A stretch of 64,000 nt of DNA from an uncultured Pelagibacteraceae bacterium (lineage in GTDB: Bacteria > Pseudomonadota > Alphaproteobacteria > Pelagibacterales > Pelagibacteraceae). Positions 38,533-52,889 of the stretch are shown here, in pieces. Each line of letters begins with the position of its first letter. Positions within the stretch are counted from its first letter, which is position 1. Location of the stretch: assembly GCA_902548405.1 (NCBI GenBank), contig CACCRN010000001.1, forward strand, positions 62,001 to 126,000, given 5' to 3'. Below the pieces are notes generated by a model, which was not told the DNA's origin, ran no database searches, and saw only the letters and a list, made by a program, of their open reading frames with translations. The position numbers and the translations under genes were made by a program.

Positions 38533-38657
38533 TTCAAAAATAAGTACAATAGTAGAATAACCCAAAAAAAAGGGTAATAAAAATAAATATATTTCTTTGC
38601 AAAAAGAAAAGATATTGAATTCTCTTTAGAAGTTTTTTGTTTATTTTTTTTAGTCAT
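38529..38657 (-). CDS. Candidate 42-aa membrane microprotein MTKKNKQKTSKENSISFLFAKKYIYFYYPFFWVILLLYLFLK
   Basis: Hand-translated minus-strand ORF; start overlaps the dksA stop (ATGACTAA); basic N-terminus plus hydrophobic helix. Confidence 0.5.
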   Translation of the reverse strand: MTKKNKQKTSKENSISFLFAKKYIYFYYPFFWVILLLYLFLK

Positions 38658-39165
38658 CTGCATGAACTTTTTCGTCTTTTTCATGCTTTTCTTGTGCGGC
38701 TATTGTGTATTTAGCAACTGGTCTTGCCATTAATCTTTTTAAACCAATTGGTTCGGCTGTGTCCAAACAATATCCGTAAGTATCGTCCATAATTCTTCTT
38801 AAAGCTTTATCGATTTCAGAAATTAATTTTATTTGTCTATTAATTGCTTTCATCTCAACATTTTTATCAATATATGAACTTGCTTGATCTACAAGATCAG
38901 CAGAAATGTTATTGTCATCCATACTTCCATTGTAAAGAGCTTCATTATTTGCTTTAATTAATTCTTTTTTCCATTCATTTAATCTCATTCTGAAAAATAC
39001 TTTATGTTTTTCACACATATATTTTTCAGTTTCTTTTGGAACGTAATTTTTAGAAATTTTAATAGGAACTTTTTTAGTTGGCGAAGCCACAGTTTTTTTT
39101 GGCTTACTTACAACTTTAGTTTTTGGTTTAGATACTTTTTTCTTTGCTTTAGCTGTCTTTGGCAT
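38650..39165 (-). CDS. dksA: DksA/TraR-family regulator with degenerate Zn finger and Lys-rich N-terminal extension
   Basis: MDDTYGYCLDTAEPIGLKRLMARPVAKYTIAAQEKHE; PKTAKAKKKVSKPKTKVVSKPKK N-terminus. Confidence 0.88.
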   Translation of the reverse strand: MPKTAKAKKKVSKPKTKVVSKPKKTVASPTKKVPIKISKNYVPKETEKYMCEKHKVFFRMRLNEWKKELIKANNEALYNGSMDDNNISADLVDQASSYIDKNVEMKAINRQIKLISEIDKALRRIMDDTYGYCLDTAEPIGLKRLMARPVAKYTIAAQEKHEKDEKVHADD

Positions 39166-39243: not shown

Positions 39244-40563
39244 ATGACCATTAATAACAAAAATATAGATAATCTTTTTTATATTTTTGTTACATCTCAT
39301 CTAATTTTTTGGACTTTGATTCCAACTATTACTAATCATAATTTACCCCTAGATACAATTGAAGCTTTAGCTTGGGGTAGTAATTTAGATTGGGGTTTTA
39401 ATAAGCATCCTCCTATGAGTGCTTTTTTTCCAGAAGTTTTTTTTCAAATTTTTGGCTCTCAAGACTGGGCTTATTATCTACTAAGCCAAATTTTTGTAAT
39501 CATTTCATTTTATTATGTGTTTAAACTTTCTAACGAAATACTTAAAAATAAATTTTTTGGTTTAATTTCAGTTTTATTAATTGAGACAATTTATTTTTAT
39601 AATTTTACCACACCTGAGTTTAACGTAAATGTATGCCAGTTACCTTTTTGGTCTTTAACTGCATATTATTCTTGGAAAATTTATAATGAAAAAAATATTA
39701 AGTTTTGGGATTGTTTTTTAATAGGTTTGTTTGGTGCATTGGGATTTTTATCAAAATATTTGTTCATTTACTTATTAGTTTCTATTTCAATTTTATTTAT
39801 TTATTTAATTATTAAAAAAGAAAGAAAGTTTGATTTTAAATATTTAATAACAATTGAAGTATTTATAGTTGCTTTAGTTCCTCACTTAATTTGGTTAAAC
39901 AATAATGAATTCATTACAATTGCTTATGGACTTGCAAGAACAGGTTTTGAAGAATTAAGTTTTATTGATCACATCAAATATCCATTAATATTTTTAGGAA
40001 AACAAATAGGTATATTAATTCCATTTATAATTTTAACGTTGTTATTGGTTAAAAAACTTAAATATAAAATTAATTTCAAAGATAAAAATTTATTATTCTT
40101 GTTAGCAATAAATATATTACCAATTGCTCTGATGTTTTTAACTTCTTTGATTACAGGATCAAAAATTAGAACAATGTGGATGACGCCATTTTATTTGTTC
40201 ATTGGCACACTGGTTGTTTATTTGTTCCAATCTCAAATAAATTTAAAAAAACTAAAACCCTTTATGGTTGGATTTTTGTTCTTTTTCTTTTTATCACCTA
40301 TTTTGTACGCTTATGTTTCGGTTTCAAAAGACGATAAGAGAACAGATTACCCAGGAAAAGAAATAGCCATGAAAACTCAATATGCTTGGGAGCAACAATT
40401 TAACTCTAAGATCAATGTAGTTCTAGGAGATGAATGGAATGCAGGCAATTTATCTTATCACCTTAAATCTAGACCAGTTTGGGAAGGTCAAGTTCAAAGA
40501 GAGAAACTTGATCAATTGAAAGATTATATGTGTCTTGATAGTATCTGTGTTGGATCAAAATAA
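39244..40563 (+). CDS. PMT/ArnT-like polytopic glycosyltransferase (GT39/GT83-like)
   Basis: Multiple TMs; early DTIEALAWGSNLDWGFNKHPPMSAFF catalytic-loop-like motif. Confidence 0.8.
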   Translation: MTINNKNIDNLFYIFVTSHLIFWTLIPTITNHNLPLDTIEALAWGSNLDWGFNKHPPMSAFFPEVFFQIFGSQDWAYYLLSQIFVIISFYYVFKLSNEILKNKFFGLISVLLIETIYFYNFTTPEFNVNVCQLPFWSLTAYYSWKIYNEKNIKFWDCFLIGLFGALGFLSKYLFIYLLVSISILFIYLIIKKERKFDFKYLITIEVFIVALVPHLIWLNNNEFITIAYGLARTGFEELSFIDHIKYPLIFLGKQIGILIPFIILTLLLVKKLKYKINFKDKNLLFLLAINILPIALMFLTSLITGSKIRTMWMTPFYLFIGTLVVYLFQSQINLKKLKPFMVGFLFFFFLSPILYAYVSVSKDDKRTDYPGKEIAMKTQYAWEQQFNSKINVVLGDEWNAGNLSYHLKSRPVWEGQVQREKLDQLKDYMCLDSICVGSK

Positions 40564-40566
40564 TCT

Positions 40567-41436
40567 ATGAGATATGTCATTTTAGTACCAGTTTATAATG
40601 ACCGCGAGTCTTTGAAGTTATTAATTGAAAATATTAATCATGAAATAAAAGATTTAAATTCTGAAATATCATTAGTGGTAATTAATGATGCATCTTCACA
40701 ACAAATTATTGATGAATACCCAAATATTGAAAACATTCACTCAATTGAAATCATCAACATGAAAGAAAACCGAGGTCACGCAAGATGCATTGCTTCTGGT
40801 TTGAAATATATCTATGAGAAAAAGGAATTTGATTATGTCATTCCAATGGACGGAGATGGTGAAGATAGACCTGAAGAAATTAAAAACTTTATTGAATTAT
40901 CAAAGGAAGCTGGAGAAAGATCTATAATTGGTGAAAGGGTTAAAAGATCTGAAAGTATGTTCTTTAAATTATGTTACCAATTTCATAAGTTTCTTACTTT
41001 AGCATTTACTGGACAATCAATTAAATTTGGTAATTTTACATGTCTTTCAAAAGCAACTGTTAAAAAAATGTTAGATGAAAAATCTACTTGGAATAGTTTT
41101 TCTGGGTCATTAAAAAAAATAGAAAAAGATTTAATTTCTTCTCCATCAATTAGAGGAAAAAGATATTTTGGCCCATCTCAAATGAGTTTTTTCAAATTAT
41201 TAAAACATTCTCTTTCAATAATAAGTGTATTTAGAAAAACAGTTTTAATTCGTTCAGCTTTATTCATAGTTTTTTATATTTTGTTAATCAAAAGTAATGC
41301 GTCAATTGTTACCTCACTACCTTTAGTTTTGTTATTAATAATGATTTATTCAATTTCTAGTTTAGCTCTAAGAGAAAATATTGAAGAATTTAATAATTCC
41401 TTAACAAACATAAACGATATTGATAAAGTAAAATAA
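40567..41436 (+). CDS. GT2 glycosyltransferase, dolichyl/polyprenyl-phosphate sugar synthase-like
   Basis: VILVPVYNDRESL, VVINDAS, IPMDGDGEDRPEEI (DxD); C-terminal TMs. Confidence 0.88.
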   Translation: MRYVILVPVYNDRESLKLLIENINHEIKDLNSEISLVVINDASSQQIIDEYPNIENIHSIEIINMKENRGHARCIASGLKYIYEKKEFDYVIPMDGDGEDRPEEIKNFIELSKEAGERSIIGERVKRSESMFFKLCYQFHKFLTLAFTGQSIKFGNFTCLSKATVKKMLDEKSTWNSFSGSLKKIEKDLISSPSIRGKRYFGPSQMSFFKLLKHSLSIISVFRKTVLIRSALFIVFYILLIKSNASIVTSLPLVLLLIMIYSISSLALRENIEEFNNSLTNINDIDKVK

Positions 41437-41438
41437 CT

Positions 41439-42878
41439 ATGAGAAACTTTTTTAGAAAAGTTGCTTTTGGAATAGGACCCAATGAAGAAGTTCCTTCAGA
41501 TCCACTCAATTGGGCTTTAAATCAGGTAGATGAAATTCCAGAATTTTCATGGAAGGGAAAAATTCTTACTGAAAAAGAATTAAGAGGTCATTATAGAGAT
41601 TGGGTTTACGGCGATAGAGAAGTTTTAAGAAAAAAATATAAAGATAATAAAAATCTCTACAAAGCTCACAAAGATCAATTGAGACATGATACAGGGCAAA
41701 AATTTTGGGAGTCTTTAGATATAGCTATCAGACACAATGAGGGAATTAACGGTAAAAATCCTGTACTTGCAAAACTATGGATGTTCTGGGGAAATTTTTT
41801 TGCAATAAGTGAAAAAGATTTTTTAGCGAATTATTCAACAGGGCCATACCAGAGAGAAATTATTTGGCCAAATTTAAATCAATCATTTGAAAAAATGGTT
41901 TATGATGTAACTACTTCATGGGCAATGATCCATCATTTGGATAACAGTGAAAGTGTTGGTCCAAAAAGTATTTCGGCAAGAGAGGAGTGGCGAAGAAGAA
42001 AAAAGAAACCCGCTACAATTAATGAAAATCATGCAAGAGAACTTATGGAGCTTCACACAGTTTCTCCTAAAGCAGGATACACTCAAGAGGATGTAATTCA
42101 GTTAGCTTATATAATGACAGGTTGGGAACATCGTTGGAGTAAGAAAAAATTAGAAACCGGCAATGTTTGGTTTAATTCTGAGCACCATCAACCAGGTAAA
42201 AAAAATGTTTTAGGTAAAAAATACAAAAGTGGAAAAAAAACATTGGCTGTCGTAATTAAAGATTTAGTTAATCACCCAAATTGTAGAGATTTTGTTGCTG
42301 AAAGATTGTGTAGGTTTCTAATTACTGATGAACCAACTCAAGAGATGAAGCAACCAATAATTGACGCATTTAAGAAATCAGATGGTCATATTCCTGATAT
42401 TCATAAAGCAGCTATAAAAGTTGCTTTTGATTACAATGATAAATATAAAAAATTTCAAACACCTGAAAACTGGGTAATTCAAGTTGCAAAAATTGGAGAT
42501 TTACAATGGCCTCCATCACCAGAAATAATGGACTCATATGAATTAGGCAATAAGCCAACAAGGAAGCAAAGAATGCCAGAAAGATTATTAAACAATATTG
42601 GCCATCACCCTTATAGGGCAAAACAGCCAAATGGATGGTCTGATCATTCAGAAGATTGGATGTCACCAGAATTATTAATTAGAAGATTAGTATTAGCTGA
42701 CAGGAGCTATTCTTTTACTAAACCAGAAAATAATAATAATGATTTTTACTACAACGCAGTTAACAAAAATTTTGATAACCCTGATAAGATACTAGACTAT
42801 ATGTATAAAAATATGGTTCAAAGGAAAAGTGAGAGAAACGTTTTATTATTTAACCACCCGGAGTTTTTAAAAGCATGA
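41439..42878 (+). CDS. DUF1800 family protein, copy 1
   Basis: NENHARELMELHTVSPKAGYTQEDVIQLAYIMTGW signature. Confidence 0.9.
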   Translation: MRNFFRKVAFGIGPNEEVPSDPLNWALNQVDEIPEFSWKGKILTEKELRGHYRDWVYGDREVLRKKYKDNKNLYKAHKDQLRHDTGQKFWESLDIAIRHNEGINGKNPVLAKLWMFWGNFFAISEKDFLANYSTGPYQREIIWPNLNQSFEKMVYDVTTSWAMIHHLDNSESVGPKSISAREEWRRRKKKPATINENHARELMELHTVSPKAGYTQEDVIQLAYIMTGWEHRWSKKKLETGNVWFNSEHHQPGKKNVLGKKYKSGKKTLAVVIKDLVNHPNCRDFVAERLCRFLITDEPTQEMKQPIIDAFKKSDGHIPDIHKAAIKVAFDYNDKYKKFQTPENWVIQVAKIGDLQWPPSPEIMDSYELGNKPTRKQRMPERLLNNIGHHPYRAKQPNGWSDHSEDWMSPELLIRRLVLADRSYSFTKPENNNNDFYYNAVNKNFDNPDKILDYMYKNMVQRKSERNVLLFNHPEFLKA

Positions 42879-44026
42879 AAATAAATAGACGAGATTTTCT
42901 AAAAGCAACTGCATTGACTTCTTTATACTTTGCAGGATTTGGAACACCAACCTTAGCAAGCAATAGTCCTAAAAAAAATTTAGTAGTCATCATGTTGCGT
43001 GGTGGTATGGATGGATTATGTGCGATACCAATCAAAGGTGACAAGAATTTTGAAAAGCTTAGAAGCAAAATAAATCTTGATAAGACTTTAGATTTAACAA
43101 GTGATTTTGATTTACATCCTGCTCTAACATCATTTAAACGATTATGGGATCAAAATTTAGCTGCAGCAGTACATGCAACAAATATTCCTTATACTGGAAG
43201 ATCACATTTTGATGGTCAAAACTTAATGGAGACAGGTGGAAAAATTCCATATCAAGAAAAAACTGGATGGCTTGGAAGAGGAATGAATATTGCAGGTCTT
43301 ACAGGAAATGGTCTGGCTCTTGCTTTACCTATGCCATTATTAATTAGAGGTGTACCTATGAACAATAATTATTATCCTGTTGGAGATAAGCTGCCAAGTA
43401 ATTCTACACTAGGTTTGATTGAGCAAGCATTTAAAGAATATGATGAAAAACTATTAAGTGAAAATTTAAAAATCGTTATGACAAGAGAATTAAAAAATAC
43501 TGGAAGCAGAAAAAATTGGTCTCTTGCTGCAAATGCAGGGGAAGAACTCTCAAAACCTAATGGTCCGAGAGTAGCTGTTTTCGAAGTTGATGGATTTGAT
43601 ACTCATGCTGCACAAGGAGGAACAAATGGAGCTCATGCAGATTGCCTAAGTGATTACAATGAAATTGTAAGAGGATTAAAACAATCAATGTCAAAAGAAA
43701 CATTTGATCATACTTTGATTGTTACACTTACTGAATTTGGAAGAACTATTAAACAAAATGGTAGTAATGGCACAGAACACGGATATGGATCTGCAATCTT
43801 TTTAGCTGGTGGATTAGTTAAAAAAGCTCAAGTTCATACAGATTGGCCAGGGTTAAAAAGAAAAGAATTATTTGAAGGAAGAGATTTAAATTCAACAATT
43901 GATGCAAGATCAGTATATGCATCTGCTATGTCTACAGTGTTTGATATTGAGTTTGAAAGAATTCAAAAAAATGTTTTCTGGGGTGATAAATTAGACAACT
44001 TATCCGATAAGCTCTTTAAAGCTTAA
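42875..44026 (+). CDS. DUF1501 family protein with Tat signal, copy 1
   Basis: NRRDFLKATALTSLYFAGFGTPTLA twin-arginine leader; VVIMLRGGMDGL, DTHAAQGG, TEFGRTIKQNGSNGTEHGYGS. Confidence 0.9.
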   Translation: MKINRRDFLKATALTSLYFAGFGTPTLASNSPKKNLVVIMLRGGMDGLCAIPIKGDKNFEKLRSKINLDKTLDLTSDFDLHPALTSFKRLWDQNLAAAVHATNIPYTGRSHFDGQNLMETGGKIPYQEKTGWLGRGMNIAGLTGNGLALALPMPLLIRGVPMNNNYYPVGDKLPSNSTLGLIEQAFKEYDEKLLSENLKIVMTRELKNTGSRKNWSLAANAGEELSKPNGPRVAVFEVDGFDTHAAQGGTNGAHADCLSDYNEIVRGLKQSMSKETFDHTLIVTLTEFGRTIKQNGSNGTEHGYGSAIFLAGGLVKKAQVHTDWPGLKRKELFEGRDLNSTIDARSVYASAMSTVFDIEFERIQKNVFWGDKLDNLSDKLFKA

Positions 44027-45444
44027 TGAAAAATTTCTTTAGAAAAGTTGCATTTGGAATTGGTCCTAATGAAGAGGTGCCTTCCGATCCATTAGCATGG
44101 GCTCTTAATCAATTAGATGATGTTCCCGATTTAACCTGGAAAGGTAAAATTCCTTCTGGGAAAGAAATGATTGAAATACATGCAAGAAAAAATGAAATCG
44201 AACTAAAAAAAGTAAGAGAAAAATATAAAGATGATAAGAAGCTTTTAAAAATTGGAATTAAAAGATTGAACTATGAAACTGGACTTCATTTTTGGCCATC
44301 ATTAGAATTAAGTATCAGGCATACAGAAGCGATTTATAGTAATTCACCTGTTTTAGCAAAATTATGGTTTTTCTGGTCAAATCATTTTGCAATAGTAGAT
44401 GGAGGTTTTAGAACTGCATTTTATACGGGGCCATATCAAAGAGAGGTTATTAGGACAAACTTAAACCAGACTTTTGAAAAACTTGTTTATAATGTAACAA
44501 CTTCGCCGGCTATGATTTCTAGTTTGGACAACGGTGACAATATAGGACCTAAAAGCAAAATTGGAAAAAAGAATAAAAAATCATCTTCAATAAATGAAAA
44601 CCATGCAAGAGAATTATTAGAACTTCATACTGTTTCACCAGCAGCAGGATATACTCAAGAAGATATTATACAATTAGCCTACATAATGACTGGTTGGATG
44701 AATGGTTATAGTAAATCAACTGGTGACACTCTACCAGTAGAATTTAACAAAGACCGTCATCAACCAGGAAAAAAAACTGTCTTTGGTAAAACTTACAAAA
44801 GTGGAAAAAAAAGTTTGGAAAATGTTATTAAAGATTTAGTGCATCATCCAAACTGTAGAGATTTTATAGCAACAAAACTATGTAGGTATTTGATTACTGA
44901 TAATCCCACAGAAGAAATGAAAAAACCAATAATAAAAGCTTTTAAAGACTCTGATGGTTTTTTACCTGAAATTCATAAAGCAGCTATCAGAGTAGCCTTT
45001 GAATATAATGATCAATATCAAAAATTTCAAAATCCTGAAAATTGGTTTTTGCAAATGGCTAAATTAGCTGATTTTAGTTGGCCAACTTCACCAACAATTA
45101 TGGATTTATATGAAGTAGGTAGAAAGCCACAATTAGCTCATACGCAACCTCAGGGTAAACTTTATGATTTGGGACATGATCCCTACAGAGCCAAACAACC
45201 AAATGGATTTTCCGATTTTGAAGCTGATTGGATATCACCAGAATTATTAATTAGAAGATTAGTTTTTGCAAAAGACTGTTTTGAGCTTACAAAGTCAAAA
45301 AATAATAATTTCAAATTTTACAAAAACATAGTTAACAAAAATTTTAATAATCCAGAGAGAATATTTAATTACCTAGAAAAAGCTAAAAAGCCTTACGAAA
45401 TACAAATTTTATTATTTAACCATCCGGAGTTTTTAAAAGCATGA
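44026..45444 (+). CDS. DUF1800 family protein, copy 2
   Basis: NENHARELLELHTVSPAAGYTQEDIIQLAYIMTGW; paralogous to 41439-42878. Confidence 0.9.
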   Translation: MKNFFRKVAFGIGPNEEVPSDPLAWALNQLDDVPDLTWKGKIPSGKEMIEIHARKNEIELKKVREKYKDDKKLLKIGIKRLNYETGLHFWPSLELSIRHTEAIYSNSPVLAKLWFFWSNHFAIVDGGFRTAFYTGPYQREVIRTNLNQTFEKLVYNVTTSPAMISSLDNGDNIGPKSKIGKKNKKSSSINENHARELLELHTVSPAAGYTQEDIIQLAYIMTGWMNGYSKSTGDTLPVEFNKDRHQPGKKTVFGKTYKSGKKSLENVIKDLVHHPNCRDFIATKLCRYLITDNPTEEMKKPIIKAFKDSDGFLPEIHKAAIRVAFEYNDQYQKFQNPENWFLQMAKLADFSWPTSPTIMDLYEVGRKPQLAHTQPQGKLYDLGHDPYRAKQPNGFSDFEADWISPELLIRRLVFAKDCFELTKSKNNNFKFYKNIVNKNFNNPERIFNYLEKAKKPYEIQILLFNHPEFLKA

Positions 45445-46586
45445 AGATAAATAGAAGAGATTTTTTAAAGACCACGGCTGCAACCTCATTATTTTTTGCA
45501 GGCTTTGGATTGCCATCTTTTGCTAGTCAAAATAAAAAAAACTTAGTTGTTATCATGCTTGAAGGTGGAATGGACGGACTCTGTGCAGTTCCTATTAGGG
45601 GTGACAAAAATTTTAAAAAATTAAGAAGTAAAATTAATTTAAAAAAAACTTTAAAACTAACTTCTGATTTTGATTTACACCCTGCATTGGAAAATTTTAA
45701 AACACTATGGGACCAAAATACAGCATCTGTATTTCATGCAACTAGCATTCCCTATAAAGGAAGATCTCATTTTGAAGGACAAGATATGATGATGTCTGGT
45801 GGGACAGTGCCGTATCAAGAGAAAACAGGATGGCTAGGAAGAGGAATGAAGCTTGCAGGTTTAAAAGGAAATGGGCTTGCTATGTCACTTCCAATGCCAT
45901 TACTTATAAGAGGTGTTCCATTAAATAATAATTATTTTCCTATAAGATCTTCTCTACCACAAAAGCGTCTTTTAAATATTATTGAAGAAGAATTTAATCA
46001 ATATTCTGAAAAAGATTTGAGTGAAACATTATCAATAATAAGAAATAGAGATTTAAATTATTTTCCAGGAACAAACGCTAGTACTTTAGCTTTACAAGCG
46101 GGGAAACTACTTTCTGATCCAAATGGACCAAGAGTGGCAGTTTTTAAAGTAGAAAATTTTGATACTCACGCAGCTCAAGGTGGAGATGATGGTACGCATG
46201 CAGATTGTTTAAAAGAATACGATCAAATATTAAAAGCACTAAAAGCTTCTTTAGGCTCTACATTTAAAGATACTTTAATACTTACACTTACTGAATTTGG
46301 AAGAACAGTTAAGCAAAACGGTGGTAATGGAACAGAGCATGGATATGGAACTGCAGTTTTAATGGCAGGAGGTTTAATTAAAAAATCAGAAGTTCATGGA
46401 GACTGGCCAGGACTAAAACAAAAAGAGTTATTTGAGGGTCGAGATTTAAATTCAACAATGGACGCAAGATCCATTTATGCTTCAGCAATGTCTACTGTCT
46501 TTGATTTAGATTTTAAACGTATTCAAAAAGATGTTTTCTGGGGTGATAAGTTAGACAACTTATCCGATAAGCTCTTTAAAGCTTAA
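45441..46586 (+). CDS. DUF1501 family protein with Tat signal, copy 2
   Basis: NRRDFLKTTAATSLFFAGFGLPSFA leader; TEFGRTVKQNGGNGTEHGYGT; paralogous to 42875-44026. Confidence 0.9.
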   Translation: MKINRRDFLKTTAATSLFFAGFGLPSFASQNKKNLVVIMLEGGMDGLCAVPIRGDKNFKKLRSKINLKKTLKLTSDFDLHPALENFKTLWDQNTASVFHATSIPYKGRSHFEGQDMMMSGGTVPYQEKTGWLGRGMKLAGLKGNGLAMSLPMPLLIRGVPLNNNYFPIRSSLPQKRLLNIIEEEFNQYSEKDLSETLSIIRNRDLNYFPGTNASTLALQAGKLLSDPNGPRVAVFKVENFDTHAAQGGDDGTHADCLKEYDQILKALKASLGSTFKDTLILTLTEFGRTVKQNGGNGTEHGYGTAVLMAGGLIKKSEVHGDWPGLKQKELFEGRDLNSTMDARSIYASAMSTVFDLDFKRIQKDVFWGDKLDNLSDKLFKA

Positions 46587-46615: not shown

Positions 46616-47524
46616 ATGTATATAGGCACACTCATGCCTGAAAAAAAATTAAATAATGAATTACTTGGTATCCTCTACATGGTTATTGCGCAATTTTCTT
46701 TTGCAACTAATGATGCATTAGTTAAACATATTTACCAGAGCTTTGATGAATTAGCAGTTTTAAATCAGATAATTTTTTTAAGAGGAATTTGTTGTCTTAT
46801 ATTTATAGGAATATTTTTAAGTATTAAAAACCAATTTAATTTAAGAATAATATTTTCTTCAAACAAACTAACTTTAAGAGGAATTTTAGAGGCATTAGCT
46901 GCTGTTGGGTTTTTTATAGGGGTTGCAAAATTACCTTTTGCAATGGTCTATATTTTATTGAGTTTGGCCCCAATAATAATGACAACTTTTGGAGCATTAT
47001 TTTTGAATGAAAAAGTTAGATGGAAAAGATGGAGCGCGGTTATAATAGGTTTTACAGGTGTAGTAGTTGTCATCAATCCAGCTGAATTAAAATTTGGTTA
47101 TTATTTTATATTTCCACTACTTTCTGCAATCTTTTTATCAATAAGAGATTTGGTAACTAAAAATATAAAAACAGGTCACAATAGTCTTCAAATAGCGTTT
47201 ATTACTTGTTTGGTAGTTACAATATTTTTTGGAGTTCTTTCTGTTTATAAATTTTATTCATTTAACTTAGAACAAAGTATTATCTTAATTATTTCAGCTT
47301 TCTTTTTATCTTTTGGTTATATTTTCTCAGTACTGACAATTAAAGCTGCATTAGTTTCTGTTACATCAACTTTCAGGTACACAGCGATACTTTGGGGAAT
47401 TCTATATGGATATTTCTTTTTTAACGAGGCGCCAGAATACAACACCTATCTTGGTGCCGTAATGATTGTTATAAGTGGACTTATAATTATAATGAGACAG
47501 AAGCAATTAGGTAAAATTAAATAA
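46616..47524 (+). CDS. EamA/DMT-superfamily transporter
   Basis: Ten-TM-like; two EamA repeats (LLSLAPIIMTTFGALFLNEKVRWKRW). Confidence 0.88.
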   Translation: MYIGTLMPEKKLNNELLGILYMVIAQFSFATNDALVKHIYQSFDELAVLNQIIFLRGICCLIFIGIFLSIKNQFNLRIIFSSNKLTLRGILEALAAVGFFIGVAKLPFAMVYILLSLAPIIMTTFGALFLNEKVRWKRWSAVIIGFTGVVVVINPAELKFGYYFIFPLLSAIFLSIRDLVTKNIKTGHNSLQIAFITCLVVTIFFGVLSVYKFYSFNLEQSIILIISAFFLSFGYIFSVLTIKAALVSVTSTFRYTAILWGILYGYFFFNEAPEYNTYLGAVMIVISGLIIIMRQKQLGKIK

Positions 47525-47553
47525 AAAAATTGTCTAAATTCGATACTTTAAAC

Positions 47554-47562
47554 TTATCCACA
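47554..47562 (+). promoter_or_regulatory. Consensus DnaA box TTATCCACA upstream of guaC
   Basis: Exact 9-mer read in the intergenic region. Confidence 0.5.
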
Positions 47563-47613
47563 GCCTGTAATTTGAATTGAAATACAATTTTATAAATTAT
47601 AGCCTTTTGATTA

Positions 47614-48648
47614 ATGAGAATAGAAGAAGAGCTTAAGCTAGATTACTCTGATGTCTTATTCAGACCTAAGAGAAGTACATTAAAAAGTCGAAAAGACGTT
47701 AATCTTCTTAGAACCTACAGATTTAAATATAGTAAAAACGAGTGGTCAGGTATTCCTATTATGGCAGCCAATATGGATGGTGTTGGCGAATTAAGTATTG
47801 CTGAAAAATTAAATGATCATCAAATGATTACATGTTTAACAAAGCAACATGATGTAAAAAAAATAAAACAAAACAAAAATATTAAAAAAATTTATCCAAA
47901 CATTGCACTTAGTGTTGGTATTAAAAAAGAGGATTTTCAAAACTTAGATAAGGTTTTAAAGGAGTTTAGTTTTTTCAAATTCATTTGTATTGATGTTGCA
48001 AATGGTTATTCAGAGCATTTCACAAATTTTATCAAATCAGTAAGAGAAAAATACCCAACGAAAACTATCATTGCAGGTAATGTTGTAACTGCTGATATGA
48101 CACAAGAATTAGTTCTTAGTGGTGCAGATATTGTAAAAGTTGGAATAGGACCAGGAAGTGTTTGTACGACCAGAATTCAAACTGGAGTAGGGTATCCACA
48201 ATTAAGTGCAGTCATTGAATGTGCTGATGCAGCTCACGGTTTGGGAGCTCATGTAATTGCTGATGGAGGATGTACATGTCCAGGCGATGTTGCAAAAGGT
48301 TTTGGCGGAGGTGCAGACTTTGTAATGTTAGGTGGAATGTTAGCAGGTCATGATGAAGGGAAAGGTAAAATAGTAAAAGTAAATGGATCAAAATATATCG
48401 AATTTTATGGATCAAGTTCAGAAGTTGCTAACAAAAAACATTACGGTGGATTAGCAGATTATAGAAGTAGTGAAGGAAGAAAAGTTAGAGTTAAATATAG
48501 AGGCAAAATTAACGATACAGTTTTAAATATTCTTGGTGGTGTTAGAAGTAGCTGCACTTATGTAGGAGCACCATCATTAAAACAATTAAGTAAATGTACA
48601 ACTTTTGTAAGAGTATCTAATCAATTTAATGATACTTTTGTAAAATAG
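47614..48648 (+). CDS. guaC: GMP reductase
   Basis: KLDYSDVLFRPKRSTL, GPGSVCTTRIQTGVGYPQL, GADFVMLGGMLAGHDE; no CBS insert, about 344 aa. Confidence 0.88.
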   Translation: MRIEEELKLDYSDVLFRPKRSTLKSRKDVNLLRTYRFKYSKNEWSGIPIMAANMDGVGELSIAEKLNDHQMITCLTKQHDVKKIKQNKNIKKIYPNIALSVGIKKEDFQNLDKVLKEFSFFKFICIDVANGYSEHFTNFIKSVREKYPTKTIIAGNVVTADMTQELVLSGADIVKVGIGPGSVCTTRIQTGVGYPQLSAVIECADAAHGLGAHVIADGGCTCPGDVAKGFGGGADFVMLGGMLAGHDEGKGKIVKVNGSKYIEFYGSSSEVANKKHYGGLADYRSSEGRKVRVKYRGKINDTVLNILGGVRSSCTYVGAPSLKQLSKCTTFVRVSNQFNDTFVK

Positions 48649-48683
48649 ATTTAATATTTAAAAATTAATATAAAATATTCAAA

Positions 48684-50042
48684 ATGAAAAAAATTTTAGG
48701 AGCTGCAACTCTTTTTTTATTTATATTTTCAAATTCTTTTGCAGAAGTAAAAAAAGCTATATCAAAATATAATGGTACATACACTTACAGTCATTTCTGC
48801 ACTAATGAACCTGAGCCAAAATATGATGGTAGTAGATTTATAATTGAAGATGGTGTTATTTCGAATGATAAAGGTGGTGGTGGCAGGTGGGATATTAAAA
48901 AATACAAATTAAATAAAAAAGGTAATCTTTCAATTCAGGCTCAGAGGAAAGATAGAAAATACAAAATAAAAGGGAAGTTAGAAATTGAAGGTCAAAAAAT
49001 CGAAGGTAAACTTTTAGCAAAAAGGTACAGTAAAAATGGAGAATATGAAAAAGATTGCGATATAGTATTTACAAAAGTAGGAGATTTACCTGAAAAAATT
49101 TCCTTTGATGATGATCGAAAGGTTACAGAAATCAAAGTTACTTCAAAAAATGTCTATCATGAAATTTCTCTTCTTGAAGATGAAGGAAAAAAACAGAAAA
49201 TTCGTGTTGAATTAAGAAATCTTGATAATTTAAATAACGGGTTAATTATAGTTCTTCCTTCAAGTACACCTAATATGGATGATGAAAAATTCTATGAAAA
49301 ACAAGTTAGCGAATTTGGATTTGCAACAGCAATAGTATTTGGAGCCGAACCAAGATATCAAAAAAAGTTTACTGGTTCTTACACATCATCAATGATTATG
49401 TATGATGCTATAGCAACAATTAATGCAGTATCAAAAAAATTTAGTGAACCAAAAGAAGTTATATTAATTGCATCATCAACAGGTGCACTCGCAATTTTTA
49501 AAGCAGGATGGCAAGATTACATTGATAAATACCCATCAATGAAATTAATCTCAAAAGGATTTATGATTAATGCTGCTTGCCCTGATAGCTTTGAGGCTAA
49601 GTTAAATAAGGATGTACAGCTCATTGCAGTTAATGGTACTTGGGATAATTCTACTCCTGGATCAATATGTAAAGATTTAAAAGATTCAGAAAGTTTTGAA
49701 AATATACATTTATTAGCTTATTCAGGAGGCCATCATTTTGAAAGCCCCATGTATCCTCCAACAAAATTTGTATCAAATAGCTTAACGCTATTACCTAATT
49801 GCTCGATTAATTATAAAAAAAACCTCTACCAAATTATTAAAAAAAGAGATGGAACTGGTGAATGGGATTCAGAAACAAATGGATATGAAAAAGATCAAAG
49901 AGAGTGGCTAGGGAAAAATTGTATTAAATCTGGTGCAACTCAAGGATATGAAGAATACTCTTCAAATATGTTTTGGGAAGATATGAGATCATATTTAGTC
50001 GATAAAGTAGAAATACAAAATCTAAAAGGTTATTCTAAATAA
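48684..50042 (+). CDS. Secreted alpha/beta-hydrolase-like protein with N-terminal extra domain
   Basis: Signal peptide; nucleophile-elbow-like LIASSTGALAIFKAG; late GGHHFES. Confidence 0.55.
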   Translation: MKKILGAATLFLFIFSNSFAEVKKAISKYNGTYTYSHFCTNEPEPKYDGSRFIIEDGVISNDKGGGGRWDIKKYKLNKKGNLSIQAQRKDRKYKIKGKLEIEGQKIEGKLLAKRYSKNGEYEKDCDIVFTKVGDLPEKISFDDDRKVTEIKVTSKNVYHEISLLEDEGKKQKIRVELRNLDNLNNGLIIVLPSSTPNMDDEKFYEKQVSEFGFATAIVFGAEPRYQKKFTGSYTSSMIMYDAIATINAVSKKFSEPKEVILIASSTGALAIFKAGWQDYIDKYPSMKLISKGFMINAACPDSFEAKLNKDVQLIAVNGTWDNSTPGSICKDLKDSESFENIHLLAYSGGHHFESPMYPPTKFVSNSLTLLPNCSINYKKNLYQIIKKRDGTGEWDSETNGYEKDQREWLGKNCIKSGATQGYEEYSSNMFWEDMRSYLVDKVEIQNLKGYSK

Positions 50043-51050
50043 ATGAAAAAAATTTTAATCATTCTTCTATCTCTTTTTTTAATTCCATCATATTCGTACG
50101 CTGGTAAGTGGCATACAAATATGAAAAAGCAGGAGAAGAAAGATTTTGCAAATTATGTCATTAGAAATCAATCTAAAAATAAAATGGTTTTTAATCTCAG
50201 AAATGTTCCAAATCGTCCAGGTCTAATAAAATTTTTTGATAAATTAGAAGATAGAATGGGGGTTGCAGAAAAAGGAATTGAATTTAACTTAAGTTATTCT
50301 GATGTAGGTGATAAAAATGATTGGAGTAGGTGGGGAAAACCAGGTTTTGCTCAGAGATTTCAAATTATGGAGCCATATAAGCAAACTACAAAAAAAGGGA
50401 AAACAAAATGGTATAGAGTTGGTTATTTTATTCCACATGACGTAGATACTGAGAAACACACTATCTCATTATTTGATTTTAAAATGCTTTATGGAAAAGG
50501 TGAAAAAACAGTTGGTCCTTCTTATAACATAAATAATAATAGTTTCGCTTGGTTGTTCAACGGGCCAAATTATAGAGTTTCAAAAAATGAAGTGGATGAA
50601 TCATATTACTTTGATCATTATGTAGTTAATTTAGATCAAAAATTTTCTCCATTGAAAGGCAAATGGGTAAATATTTTGATTAATGCTAAATGGGCTAAAG
50701 ATGGATTTTTACATTTGTGGATAGATGGCAAGCTCAGATCTAGTTACTTTGGAGATGTTTTAGGTGGTGCTACTAGTGTGAGATTTAAATTTGGACCATA
50801 TAGAAATTATATGACAGATGCTACTGATGCAGGTTTAACAATAAAAGATGCTATTATTCGTTATTCTAATGTGGGTAAAGCAGATTCTTGCGATGAACTA
50901 TGGAGTGGCTGTGATGAAATAACAGGTCAGCTTAAAAATCAATCTCAAGTTCATGGTGCTTCAGCAGTTGTACTTTGCAAACCAGCTGATGCAGACAACG
51001 AAGGTACTTGTGAAAATCTTGGCTATCCAAATAATCCTAGACCTTTTTAA
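50043..51050 (+). CDS. Secreted polysaccharide-lyase-like protein (heparin lyase I / PF14099-type fold)
   Basis: Signal peptide; RFQIMEPY, YRVGYFIPHD, HTISLFDFK, GKWVNILINAKWAKDGFLHLWIDGKL. Confidence 0.65.
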   Translation: MKKILIILLSLFLIPSYSYAGKWHTNMKKQEKKDFANYVIRNQSKNKMVFNLRNVPNRPGLIKFFDKLEDRMGVAEKGIEFNLSYSDVGDKNDWSRWGKPGFAQRFQIMEPYKQTTKKGKTKWYRVGYFIPHDVDTEKHTISLFDFKMLYGKGEKTVGPSYNINNNSFAWLFNGPNYRVSKNEVDESYYFDHYVVNLDQKFSPLKGKWVNILINAKWAKDGFLHLWIDGKLRSSYFGDVLGGATSVRFKFGPYRNYMTDATDAGLTIKDAIIRYSNVGKADSCDELWSGCDEITGQLKNQSQVHGASAVVLCKPADADNEGTCENLGYPNNPRPF

Positions 51051-52328
51051 TTAGGCTCTAATCGTTGGTAAACAATAAAAATCAGCTGTATCAATTTTAG
51101 AAGAATACTGCCTTCGCATATTCCACTTTTTATGAACCCCAGCACTTGCAACACTTAAAGTAGATCTTCCATATCGATGATTGGTGTTGTCAATTGATCT
51201 CATTAAGCTATTAATTTTTTCATCTTTTTCAGAAGTAAATAAATTTGTTTTATCACTTGCATTAGAAAGTCCTGTAAGCATCACACCTGCTTTTTGATAA
51301 CGATAACCATTTTTAAAAATACTCTCCAATATTGAAACTGCAGTTTTAACTGTTTCAATACTATTGTTTGTTGCAATAGGAAAATCAACCGTCTTTGCAT
51401 TTGAATAATAACCAAAGTTTCTATGAAAAGGACTTGTTCTTACAAATACTGTAATTGCTTTTGCAACTAAAGACTCTGATCTAATTTTTTCAGATGCATT
51501 TAAACAATAGTTTGCAACTGCTTCTTTTAATTCTTGAAATGTTTCAATTCTTTTTCCAAATGATCTTGAAACCACACAACTCTTTCTTTTGGTTGTAGTT
51601 GTTTCTAAATCAATACAAGGAATTCCTCTAAGCTCCATTGCTGTTCTTGAACTTAAAACATTGGAACTTTTCTTAATCCATGTATTAGATTTATTCTTAA
51701 GCTGTTTAGCATTATAAATTCCATGCTTTTGATAAAATTTAGTAAGTTGTCTACCAACACCCCATACATCATTAATTTCAACCTTTTCTAAAATAGGATC
51801 TAAATTATCTATTCCAATTAAACTCGTAACCCCAGATTGTTTTTTCTTTGCAATATGATTTGCAACTTTACTTAATGTTTTTGTTTTTGCGATCCCAATA
51901 CTTGTTGGAATACCAGTCCATTGTAAAACTGTTTCTCTAATTTCTTTTCCAACTTTTTCCACATCCTGATCTTTAAAGTTTGATAAGTCTAAAAATGCTT
52001 CATCAATTGAATAAACTTCTATTTCAGAATTAAATCTTTTAAGAGTTCTCATTACTCTTCTAGATAAATCTCCATACAAAGAATAGTTTGATGAAAAAAC
52101 ATTTACATTATTCTTAACAATAATATCTTTTGCTTTAAAATAAGGTTCGCCCATTTTAATTCCTAAAGCTTTTGCTTCATTCGATCTTGAAATGATACAG
52201 CCATCATTATTAGATAAAACAACAACAGGCTTTTTTCTTATTTTAGGATTGAATAATCTTTCACAAGAAACATAAAAAGAATTACAATCAACCAGTGCTA
52301 TTTTCTTAGTATACTGAGTGGATGACAT
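51051..52328 (-). CDS. umuC: Error-prone Y-family polymerase UmuC
   Basis: ALVDCNSFYVSCERLFNP, VVLSNNDGCIISRS, YSIDEAFLDL, GIPTSIGIAKTKTLSKVAN. Confidence 0.97.
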   Translation of the reverse strand: MSSTQYTKKIALVDCNSFYVSCERLFNPKIRKKPVVVLSNNDGCIISRSNEAKALGIKMGEPYFKAKDIIVKNNVNVFSSNYSLYGDLSRRVMRTLKRFNSEIEVYSIDEAFLDLSNFKDQDVEKVGKEIRETVLQWTGIPTSIGIAKTKTLSKVANHIAKKKQSGVTSLIGIDNLDPILEKVEINDVWGVGRQLTKFYQKHGIYNAKQLKNKSNTWIKKSSNVLSSRTAMELRGIPCIDLETTTTKRKSCVVSRSFGKRIETFQELKEAVANYCLNASEKIRSESLVAKAITVFVRTSPFHRNFGYYSNAKTVDFPIATNNSIETVKTAVSILESIFKNGYRYQKAGVMLTGLSNASDKTNLFTSEKDEKINSLMRSIDNTNHRYGRSTLSVASAGVHKKWNMRRQYSSKIDTADFYCLPTIRA

Positions 52329-52701
52329 AAGTAACTACTCCCCAAATAAAAACATCTTGTTCTTCATTAATTAAAATTCTGTCAGAAAATTCTTTAGAAC
52401 CAGAAGTTAAAAATTTTTTATCTCTTTCCTGAACTAAAGTTTTAACCACAAGTTCATCATGAACGTTTGCAATCACTGTTGAAAAGTTTTTTGGTTTTAA
52501 ACTTTTATCAACGACCAATAAATCTCCATCGTTAATGCCAACATCAACCATGGATTTTCCTTGAACTCTGATGATGAAAGTTGCTGGAACATTTCTTATT
52601 AAATGCATGTTTAGATCGATATCTTCTTCGATATAATCTGTTGCAGGAGAAGGAAAACCAGCGCCTGCTTTATGTAGATAATATGGGATTGTTAGTTTCA
52701 T
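52306..52701 (-). CDS. umuD: UmuD-type autoproteolytic SOS mutagenesis protein
   Basis: AGFPSPATDYIEEDIDLN cleavage region; GKSMVDVGINDGD Ser; VVKTL Lys; next to umuC. Confidence 0.96.
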   Translation of the reverse strand: MKLTIPYYLHKAGAGFPSPATDYIEEDIDLNMHLIRNVPATFIIRVQGKSMVDVGINDGDLLVVDKSLKPKNFSTVIANVHDELVVKTLVQERDKKFLTSGSKEFSDRILINEEQDVFIWGVVTYVIHSVY

Positions 52702-52716: not shown

Positions 52717-52772
52717 TATTTTATAGACTATTTATGAGATACACTCAATAGGTTGTATTTTGAGTCTGTAAC

Positions 52773-52793
52773 TGAATCAAAAGTGAATCAAAA
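52773..52793. repeat. Tandem direct repeat TGAATCAAAA-g-TGAATCAAAA
   Basis: Read directly in the umuD/glyoxalase intergenic region, followed by CGTGAAC. Confidence 0.6.
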
Positions 52794-52823
52794 CGTGAAC
52801 ATCCAATCCACATATTGTGGACT

Positions 52824-52832
52824 TGTGGATAA
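52824..52832 (-). promoter_or_regulatory. Consensus DnaA box (TGTGGATAA = revcomp TTATCCACA)
   Basis: Exact 9-mer next to the palindrome CCACA-TAT-TGTGG (52808-52820). Confidence 0.5.
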
Positions 52833-52889
52833 CTTCAACCATAGATAGTTTAAGTTGGTTATTTAAATATATAAATTCTGAGTTTGGTT

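Follow-up and report, generated by a model that had tools for sequence, protein, structure and literature searches.

The window analysed here, 64,000 nucleotides (nt) of DNA from an uncultured member of the Pelagibacteraceae, contains a run of six genes on one strand in which two glycosyltransferases (GTs) are followed by two modules, each composed of a DUF1800 gene and a DUF1501 gene. The nearest named loci are those of SAR11 single-cell genomes. The strand and order of the genes, their junctions and the twin-arginine translocation (Tat) type of both DUF1501 proteins had been described in a first-pass annotation, and all were confirmed from open reading frames (ORFs) and Pfam matches:

39244..40563, + strand: PMT_2 glycosyltransferase, backbone gene (Pfam PF13231, E=2e-29)
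40567..41436, + strand: GT2, polyprenyl-phosphate-sugar-synthase-like, backbone gene (Pfam PF00535 Glycos_transf_2, 6e-15)
41439..42878, + strand: DUF1800, pair type A (Pfam PF08811, E=5e-72, 243.8 bits against a cut-off of 26.1)
42875..44026, + strand: DUF1501 with Tat signal, pair type A (Pfam PF07394, E=6e-23, 82.1 bits against a cut-off of 27)
44026..45444, + strand: DUF1800, pair type B (Pfam PF08811, E=4e-75, 254.2 bits against a cut-off of 26.1)
45441..46586, + strand: DUF1501 with Tat signal, pair type B (Pfam PF07394, E=9e-25, 88.0 bits against a cut-off of 27)

Both DUF1800 and both DUF1501 proteins score above the curated Pfam cut-offs, and no further match to either family was found in the host assembly (1.07 Mb, 69% complete). 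With respect to GT2, its placement in the GT2 superfamily is sound, but the narrower assignment as a polyprenyl-phosphate-sugar synthase is not borne out by profile scores, since the match to the NCBIfam ArnC-type equivalog PRK10714 (61.9 bits) lies far under the cut-off of 529. Only superfamily membership therefore stands.

The genes are separated by 3 nt (40563/40567) or 2 nt (41436/41439), or they overlap by 4 nt (42875/42878 and 45441/45444) or 1 nt (44026). Short gaps and overlaps are common here: 19 of the 42 same-strand junctions in the whole window overlap, and in relatives GT2 overlaps the unrelated ppc gene by 4 nt (8/8). This spacing is thus no evidence for functional coupling between the GT and DUF genes, and the stop/start overlap was rejected as a sign of a GT-DUF operon. 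Promoter and terminator scans gave sites no more numerous than in shuffled sequence. The co-directional run may extend downstream to position 51050, including EamA, IMPDH/GMP-reductase-like, secreted-protein and polysaccharide lyase genes.

Pair types at a variable locus

The conserved PMT_2-GT2 pair on one side and umuC/umuD on the other delimit a hotspot of variable gene content in SAR11. Across 96 loci (one duplicate removed), whose genes were labelled with profiles built from the loci, the frame is constant and consists of DksA-like, PMT, GT2, a variable segment, UmuC and UmuD. Among the 74 loci complete to UmuC, 37 carry DUF1800 and 37 do not. The interval between GT2 and UmuC is empty in 13 of the latter; the other DUF-free hotspots hold ppc, an ammonium transporter, sulfatase and TRAP-type genes, or polysaccharide lyases. 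A urease operon accompanies the DUF pair in several hotspots. In that gene content is replaced locally while the flanks are conserved, this hotspot resembles the SAR11 hypervariable regions HVR1-4 (PMC2217521), although it sits between the GT pair and umuC/umuD.

The two modules of the window lie head to tail and have similar lengths and N-termini, which would favour a recent local tandem duplication that made both modules and gives dosage. This explanation is highly improbable. The DUF1800 proteins of the two modules are only 61% identical and the DUF1501 proteins 71%, and the tree of concatenated pairs already contradicts it, placing the window pairs in the separately supported clades A and B. 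This tree distinguishes four types in the genus, A (23 pairs), B (5), C (12) and D (16), which share 53-72% identity. The modules, initially described as a tandem duplication, are thus different old types rather than products of a recent event. Moreover, type A is found alone in many genomes and type B adjoins type C in others: the window is A+B, and L018-L021 are C+B.

The four types are old, and they come and go at the hotspot locus. Among loci of the window's GT clade, L176 contains A alone and L021, L162 and L175 contain C; a further four pairs of type C are present in loci whose GT clade otherwise holds D. Comparison of the window with L021 gives GTs that are 92-97% identical, first pairs at 53/66% and B pairs at 87/97%; pair A of L176, a locus devoid of B, is 98% identical to that of the window. 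The type B DUF1501 (45441..46586) is 96-97% identical in other SAR11. The presence of A alone or C within one GT clade, and of C with D-clade GTs, indicates that the first slot is exchanged and that a B pair may or may not be added. Two full DUF1800 copies occur only in the window's genome (G000) and in G159 among 399 genomes of the genus.

DUF1800 and DUF1501 stay together as a pair through inheritance and exchange alike. By nearest-reference assignment of 60 SAR11-type pairs, four of them from outside the genus (L209-L212), both members are of the same type in 58; all 56 genus pairs match, and both mismatches (L209, L212) lie outside the genus. The distances of the two proteins correlate at 0.96 over the 60 pairs, partly due to shared ancestry. 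In 57/60 junctions DUF1800 comes first and its end overlaps DUF1501 by 4 nt, and no fusion of the two genes was found among the long reading frames searched. The frequent pairing noted for these families in the first-pass annotation is real and tightly kept. Both modules are under purifying selection, with ratios of nonsynonymous to synonymous substitution rates (dN/dS) of about 0.06-0.2, which agrees with the selected role that had been proposed for them.

The same cannot be said of a joint role for all six genes. The initial proposal was a single pathway of all six genes, in which GT2 loads a polyprenyl carrier with a sugar, PMT passes this sugar on outside the inner membrane, and the resulting product is modified by the DUF pair. 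Both gene sets point to extracytoplasmic glycans, and in every DUF-bearing genus locus examined the DUF pair is placed at the side of the hotspot next to GT2, usually 2-18 nt away; this position is explained equally by shared ancestry of the insertion. The distribution of the genes argues against one pathway. Of 121 related genomes, 59 have a PMT homologue and about 56 a strong GT2 homologue (E<1e-40); all of them belong to the window's genus, of which 73 genomes were sampled. DUF1800 is present in 13 of these 73, and at least 43 have the GT pair without it, absence counts being approximate because many sampled genomes are incomplete. In a wider sample DUF1800 occurs in 88/399 genus genomes, and within the Pelagibacterales in one of 10 sampled genera. 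Furthermore, the same slot is taken by other genes, even by ppc with its 4-nt overlap, and C-type pairs are found with GTs of a clade otherwise holding D-type pairs.

For comparison outside the genus, 40 DUF loci were taken from further families of the Alphaproteobacteria. DUF1800 and DUF1501 are usually adjacent there, in unchanged order, and none of their neighbours in these 40 loci matched profiles of the PMT, GT2 or lyase proteins of the window. Pfam labels of the 113 adjoining ORFs, some of them probably spurious in this GC-rich DNA, revealed no family in more than three of these loci. In annotated plasmids, including those of Thermus, the two genes are adjacent and the pair stands alone. 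The six-gene neighbourhood is thus not conserved in these other families and a common pathway is not supported; what was found is largely a lack of GT-DUF co-conservation and DUF pairs without glycan genes elsewhere, the outcomes that the first-pass annotation had itself set against its proposal. We consider one pathway quite improbable. The GT pair is a genus backbone and a permanent neighbour of the DUF pair rather than a proven partner; selection appears to take the DUF1800-DUF1501 pair as its unit, not all six genes together.

The flanks and remaining cargo of the hotspot in the window are as follows:

38650..39165, - strand: DksA-like gene, left flank of the locus, kept in relatives (Pfam DksA_N and zf-dskA_traR)
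46616..47524, + strand: EamA-type transporter, hotspot cargo (Pfam EamA), one being present in L176 too
47614..48648, + strand: IMP dehydrogenase/GMP reductase family, mobile hotspot cargo (Pfam PF00478), its position differing among relatives
48684..50042, + strand: secreted-looking protein, hotspot cargo (hydrophobic N-terminus; no Pfam family)
50043..51050, + strand: polysaccharide lyase-like protein, hotspot cargo (Pfam PF14099, E=1.4e-8, above cut-off)
51051..52328, - strand: UmuC-like DNA polymerase, right flank of the hotspot (Pfam IMS/IMS_C/DUF4113)
52306..52701, - strand: UmuD-like S24 peptidase, right flank (Pfam Peptidase_S24)

The Rfam SAR11_0636 small RNA (window 52751-52840) directly adjoins umuD at this right flank. 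ABC transporters are also among the cargo between GT2 and umuC (window 46616-51050; L018-L196). In two loci (L095:13817-14821, L109:13134-14135) PMT and GT2 are separated by an adenosine deaminase-like gene, recognized by eye from a LHLHIEGSLEPELMF motif, so that the GT pair is not contiguous in every locus. Another locus encodes a secreted Gly/Met/Ala-rich repeat protein of 840 amino acids that matches no Pfam family and has a collagen-like PGNPGQPG tail (L019:18269-20791); it is paired with a gene for 181 amino acids, and this combination recurs in L094, L175 and L181.

Predicted export and chemistry of the DUF pair

The N-terminus of the window DUF1501 proteins reads MKINRRDFLK and is followed by a hydrophobic stretch. 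The twin arginines are invariant across 30 diverse relatives, and each window protein matches the Pfam TAT_signal family, with a score under the cut-off. The invariant arginines and the hydrophobic stretch uphold the Tat signal initially assigned to DUF1501. TatC was found in 22 of the 24 genomes examined.

DUF1800 differs in this respect. An in-frame stop lies four codons (type A) and two codons (type B) upstream of the start, with no start codon in between, so the starts of the window genes cannot be moved and a signal peptide is impossible. By a simple hydropathy rule, a hydrophobic N-terminus is present in 0/60 SAR11-type DUF1800 proteins and in 4/26 others. Nevertheless, Sec or lipoprotein-like signals are found on the relatives from L213, L237, L285, L287, L290 and L292, and one relative has a CBM60 domain and lies beside a DUF1501 bearing the twin arginines, which places the function of DUF1800 outside the cytoplasm for these lineages at least. 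For a protein that has no signal and is yet extracytoplasmic in relatives, the simplest route would be as a passenger of DUF1501: DUF1800 would bind DUF1501 in the cytoplasm and then cross the membrane via Tat, as in PaoABC of Escherichia coli, a Tat hitchhiker complex (PMC4273604). The likeness to hitchhikers of the PaoABC type (PMC4273604) consists in one partner with a twin-arginine signal and an operon partner without signal. However, the DUF pair is not a cofactor-binding redox enzyme, and both complex formation and co-export are only putative here. Piggyback export of DUF1800 is thus proposed by analogy.

Other residues of DUF1501 are invariant as well (D46, S110, H111, D242, H244, E287 and H302, with R63, R290 and N295), in a pattern similar to the dispersed nucleophile and metal ligands that characterize the alkaline phosphatase superfamily. 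DUF1501 would accordingly be a metalloenzyme of this superfamily, with D46, S110, D242, H244, E287 and H302 as candidate residues and DUF1800 as its helical partner; judged from these residues, a hydrolase or transferase role is plausible. The nearest folds to the DUF1501 model are NPP, YejM and sulfatase, none of them significant (E>=0.04). Structure and profile searches with DUF1800 yielded no match.

Polysaccharides as possible substrates

Several observations bear on the substrate of the pair. Downstream cargo with secretion signals includes, across loci, PF14099 lyases, PF05426 alginate-lyase-like proteins and weak GH10-like proteins. PF14099 lyases are present in 22/37 hotspots with DUF1800 and in 6/37 without it (Fisher p=2.5e-4), and GH10-like genes in 11/37 and 1/37, respectively (p=0.003). 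Clusters of secreted PF14099 and PF05426 lyase-like genes at the hotspot (L097:4896-6092, L024:12750-19434, L026:2334-8059) are unexpected in SAR11, regarded as small-molecule users. In other Pseudomonadota, a DUF1800 is fused to a CBM60 xylan-binding module (L292:3413-5488), and a CHRD-DUF1800 protein adjoins a SASA-type carbohydrate esterase (L285:2991-7118).

Different reports describe comparable gene sets. For instance, bacterial chitin-synthase operons contain DUF1501 and DUF1800, and in Agrobacterium vitis the pair occurs twice in tandem (PMC5122149). The window shares with these operons both Pfam families, the Tat motif on DUF1501 and the tandem double pairs, but no chitin synthase, aminotransferase or epimerase is present here, chitin synthase having no match among the operon proteins of the window. 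The GTs here are a PMT_2 and a short membrane GT2, and the setting is a SAR11 hotspot with lyase cargo. In Planctomycetes and Verrucomicrobia, PSCyt/PSD gene pairs adjoin sulfatases and carbohydrate-binding domains (PMC5615132); DUF1501 is not named in the main text of that report. These pairs are likewise two-gene units of uncharacterised function, and one DUF1800 protein has a weak PSD2 match, whereas neither window DUF1800 has a cytochrome c (PSCyt) Pfam match. The PSD2 (DUF1585) match overlaps the DUF1800 region (L286:2962-5703), a hint that DUF1800 is related to planctomycete PSD domains.

A link of the DUF pair to extracytoplasmic glycans is plausible. The reading that we prefer, tentatively and at somewhat less than an even chance, is that of a hotspot with two pair types in which DUF1800 would be co-exported on an alkaline-phosphatase-like Tat-DUF1501, the complex would act on a polysaccharide, and the GT pair is a neighbour. 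The polysaccharide would be anionic or carry substituents, and the complex would cleave or modify it at the cell surface or in the periplasm, working alongside the lyase- and hydrolase-like secreted proteins whose genes are often nearby; different pair types would suit different glycans.

Diverse results weigh against this reading. The usual DH metal motif of the alkaline phosphatases is EF in DUF1501, so that catalysis may differ or be lost. The AlphaFold models, built from 9-row alignments, are poor (mean predicted local distance difference test scores of 38 and 44), and fold searches with such low-confidence models carry little weight. PDB sequence and profile searches provided no solved relative of the catalytic domain, the only matches of DUF1501 being to Tat signals, and hhalign comparison of DUF1501 with the sulfatases of the locus was unconvincing. 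The window's own assembly, 69% complete, yielded no TatC. As regards the glycan link, the GT tree contains only four independent DUF contrasts, with which the lyase association is unable to reach 0.05 and is suggestive only, and carbohydrate genes are lacking around the majority of DUF pairs in other alphaproteobacteria.

Two other explanations keep part of this evidence and discard the rest, and both are unlikely. DUF1800 could be a cytoplasmic maturation chaperone of the Tat substrate DUF1501, helical like TorD/DmsD and never exported. Its predicted, mostly helical structure (a low-confidence model), its position ahead of DUF1501 with a 4-nt overlap and its lack of a signal peptide here suit a chaperone, but the Sec and lipoprotein-like signals of relatives and the CBM60 domain next to a DUF1501 with twin arginines do not, nor do the many invariant polar residues of DUF1800 (N195, E196, N197, R200, E201, E204, D218, H250). 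Alternatively, the pair could have a general role in the envelope or in phosphorus/sulfur scavenging, without any polysaccharide, the nearness of lyases being a by-product of the shared hotspot. Urease, ppc, ammonium transporter and sulfatase cargo in the same hotspot, the lack of carbohydrate enrichment outside SAR11 and the phylogenetically non-significant lyase association are consistent with such a role; against it stand the CBM60-DUF1800 fusion, the carbohydrate esterase beside another DUF1800, the published chitin-synthase operons, and the raw over-representation of lyase and GH10-like genes.

The preferred reading, co-export and action on a polysaccharide, has a broader form, which we regard as doubtful: DUF1800-DUF1501 would be a widespread two-protein polysaccharide-modifying enzyme, with a Tat-exported alkaline-phosphatase-like catalytic subunit carrying a signal-less helical partner, and its four specificity types would be swapped, with secreted lyases, at one hotspot. 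DUF1800 is present in about 30% of sampled high-completeness genomes, in both the class and the whole phylum, and a literature search found no paper reporting its function. The pair is thus a known, uncharacterised one in a new setting, where the evidence sharpens a testable hypothesis on export and glycans, and the novelty is moderate.

SAR11 is generally regarded as a user of small dissolved compounds. If true, a swapped two-protein enzyme accompanied by lyases implies that some SAR11 act on polymeric glycans, and a functional, swappable locus with secreted lyases and the DUF pair would revise which SAR11 ecotypes touch polymers.

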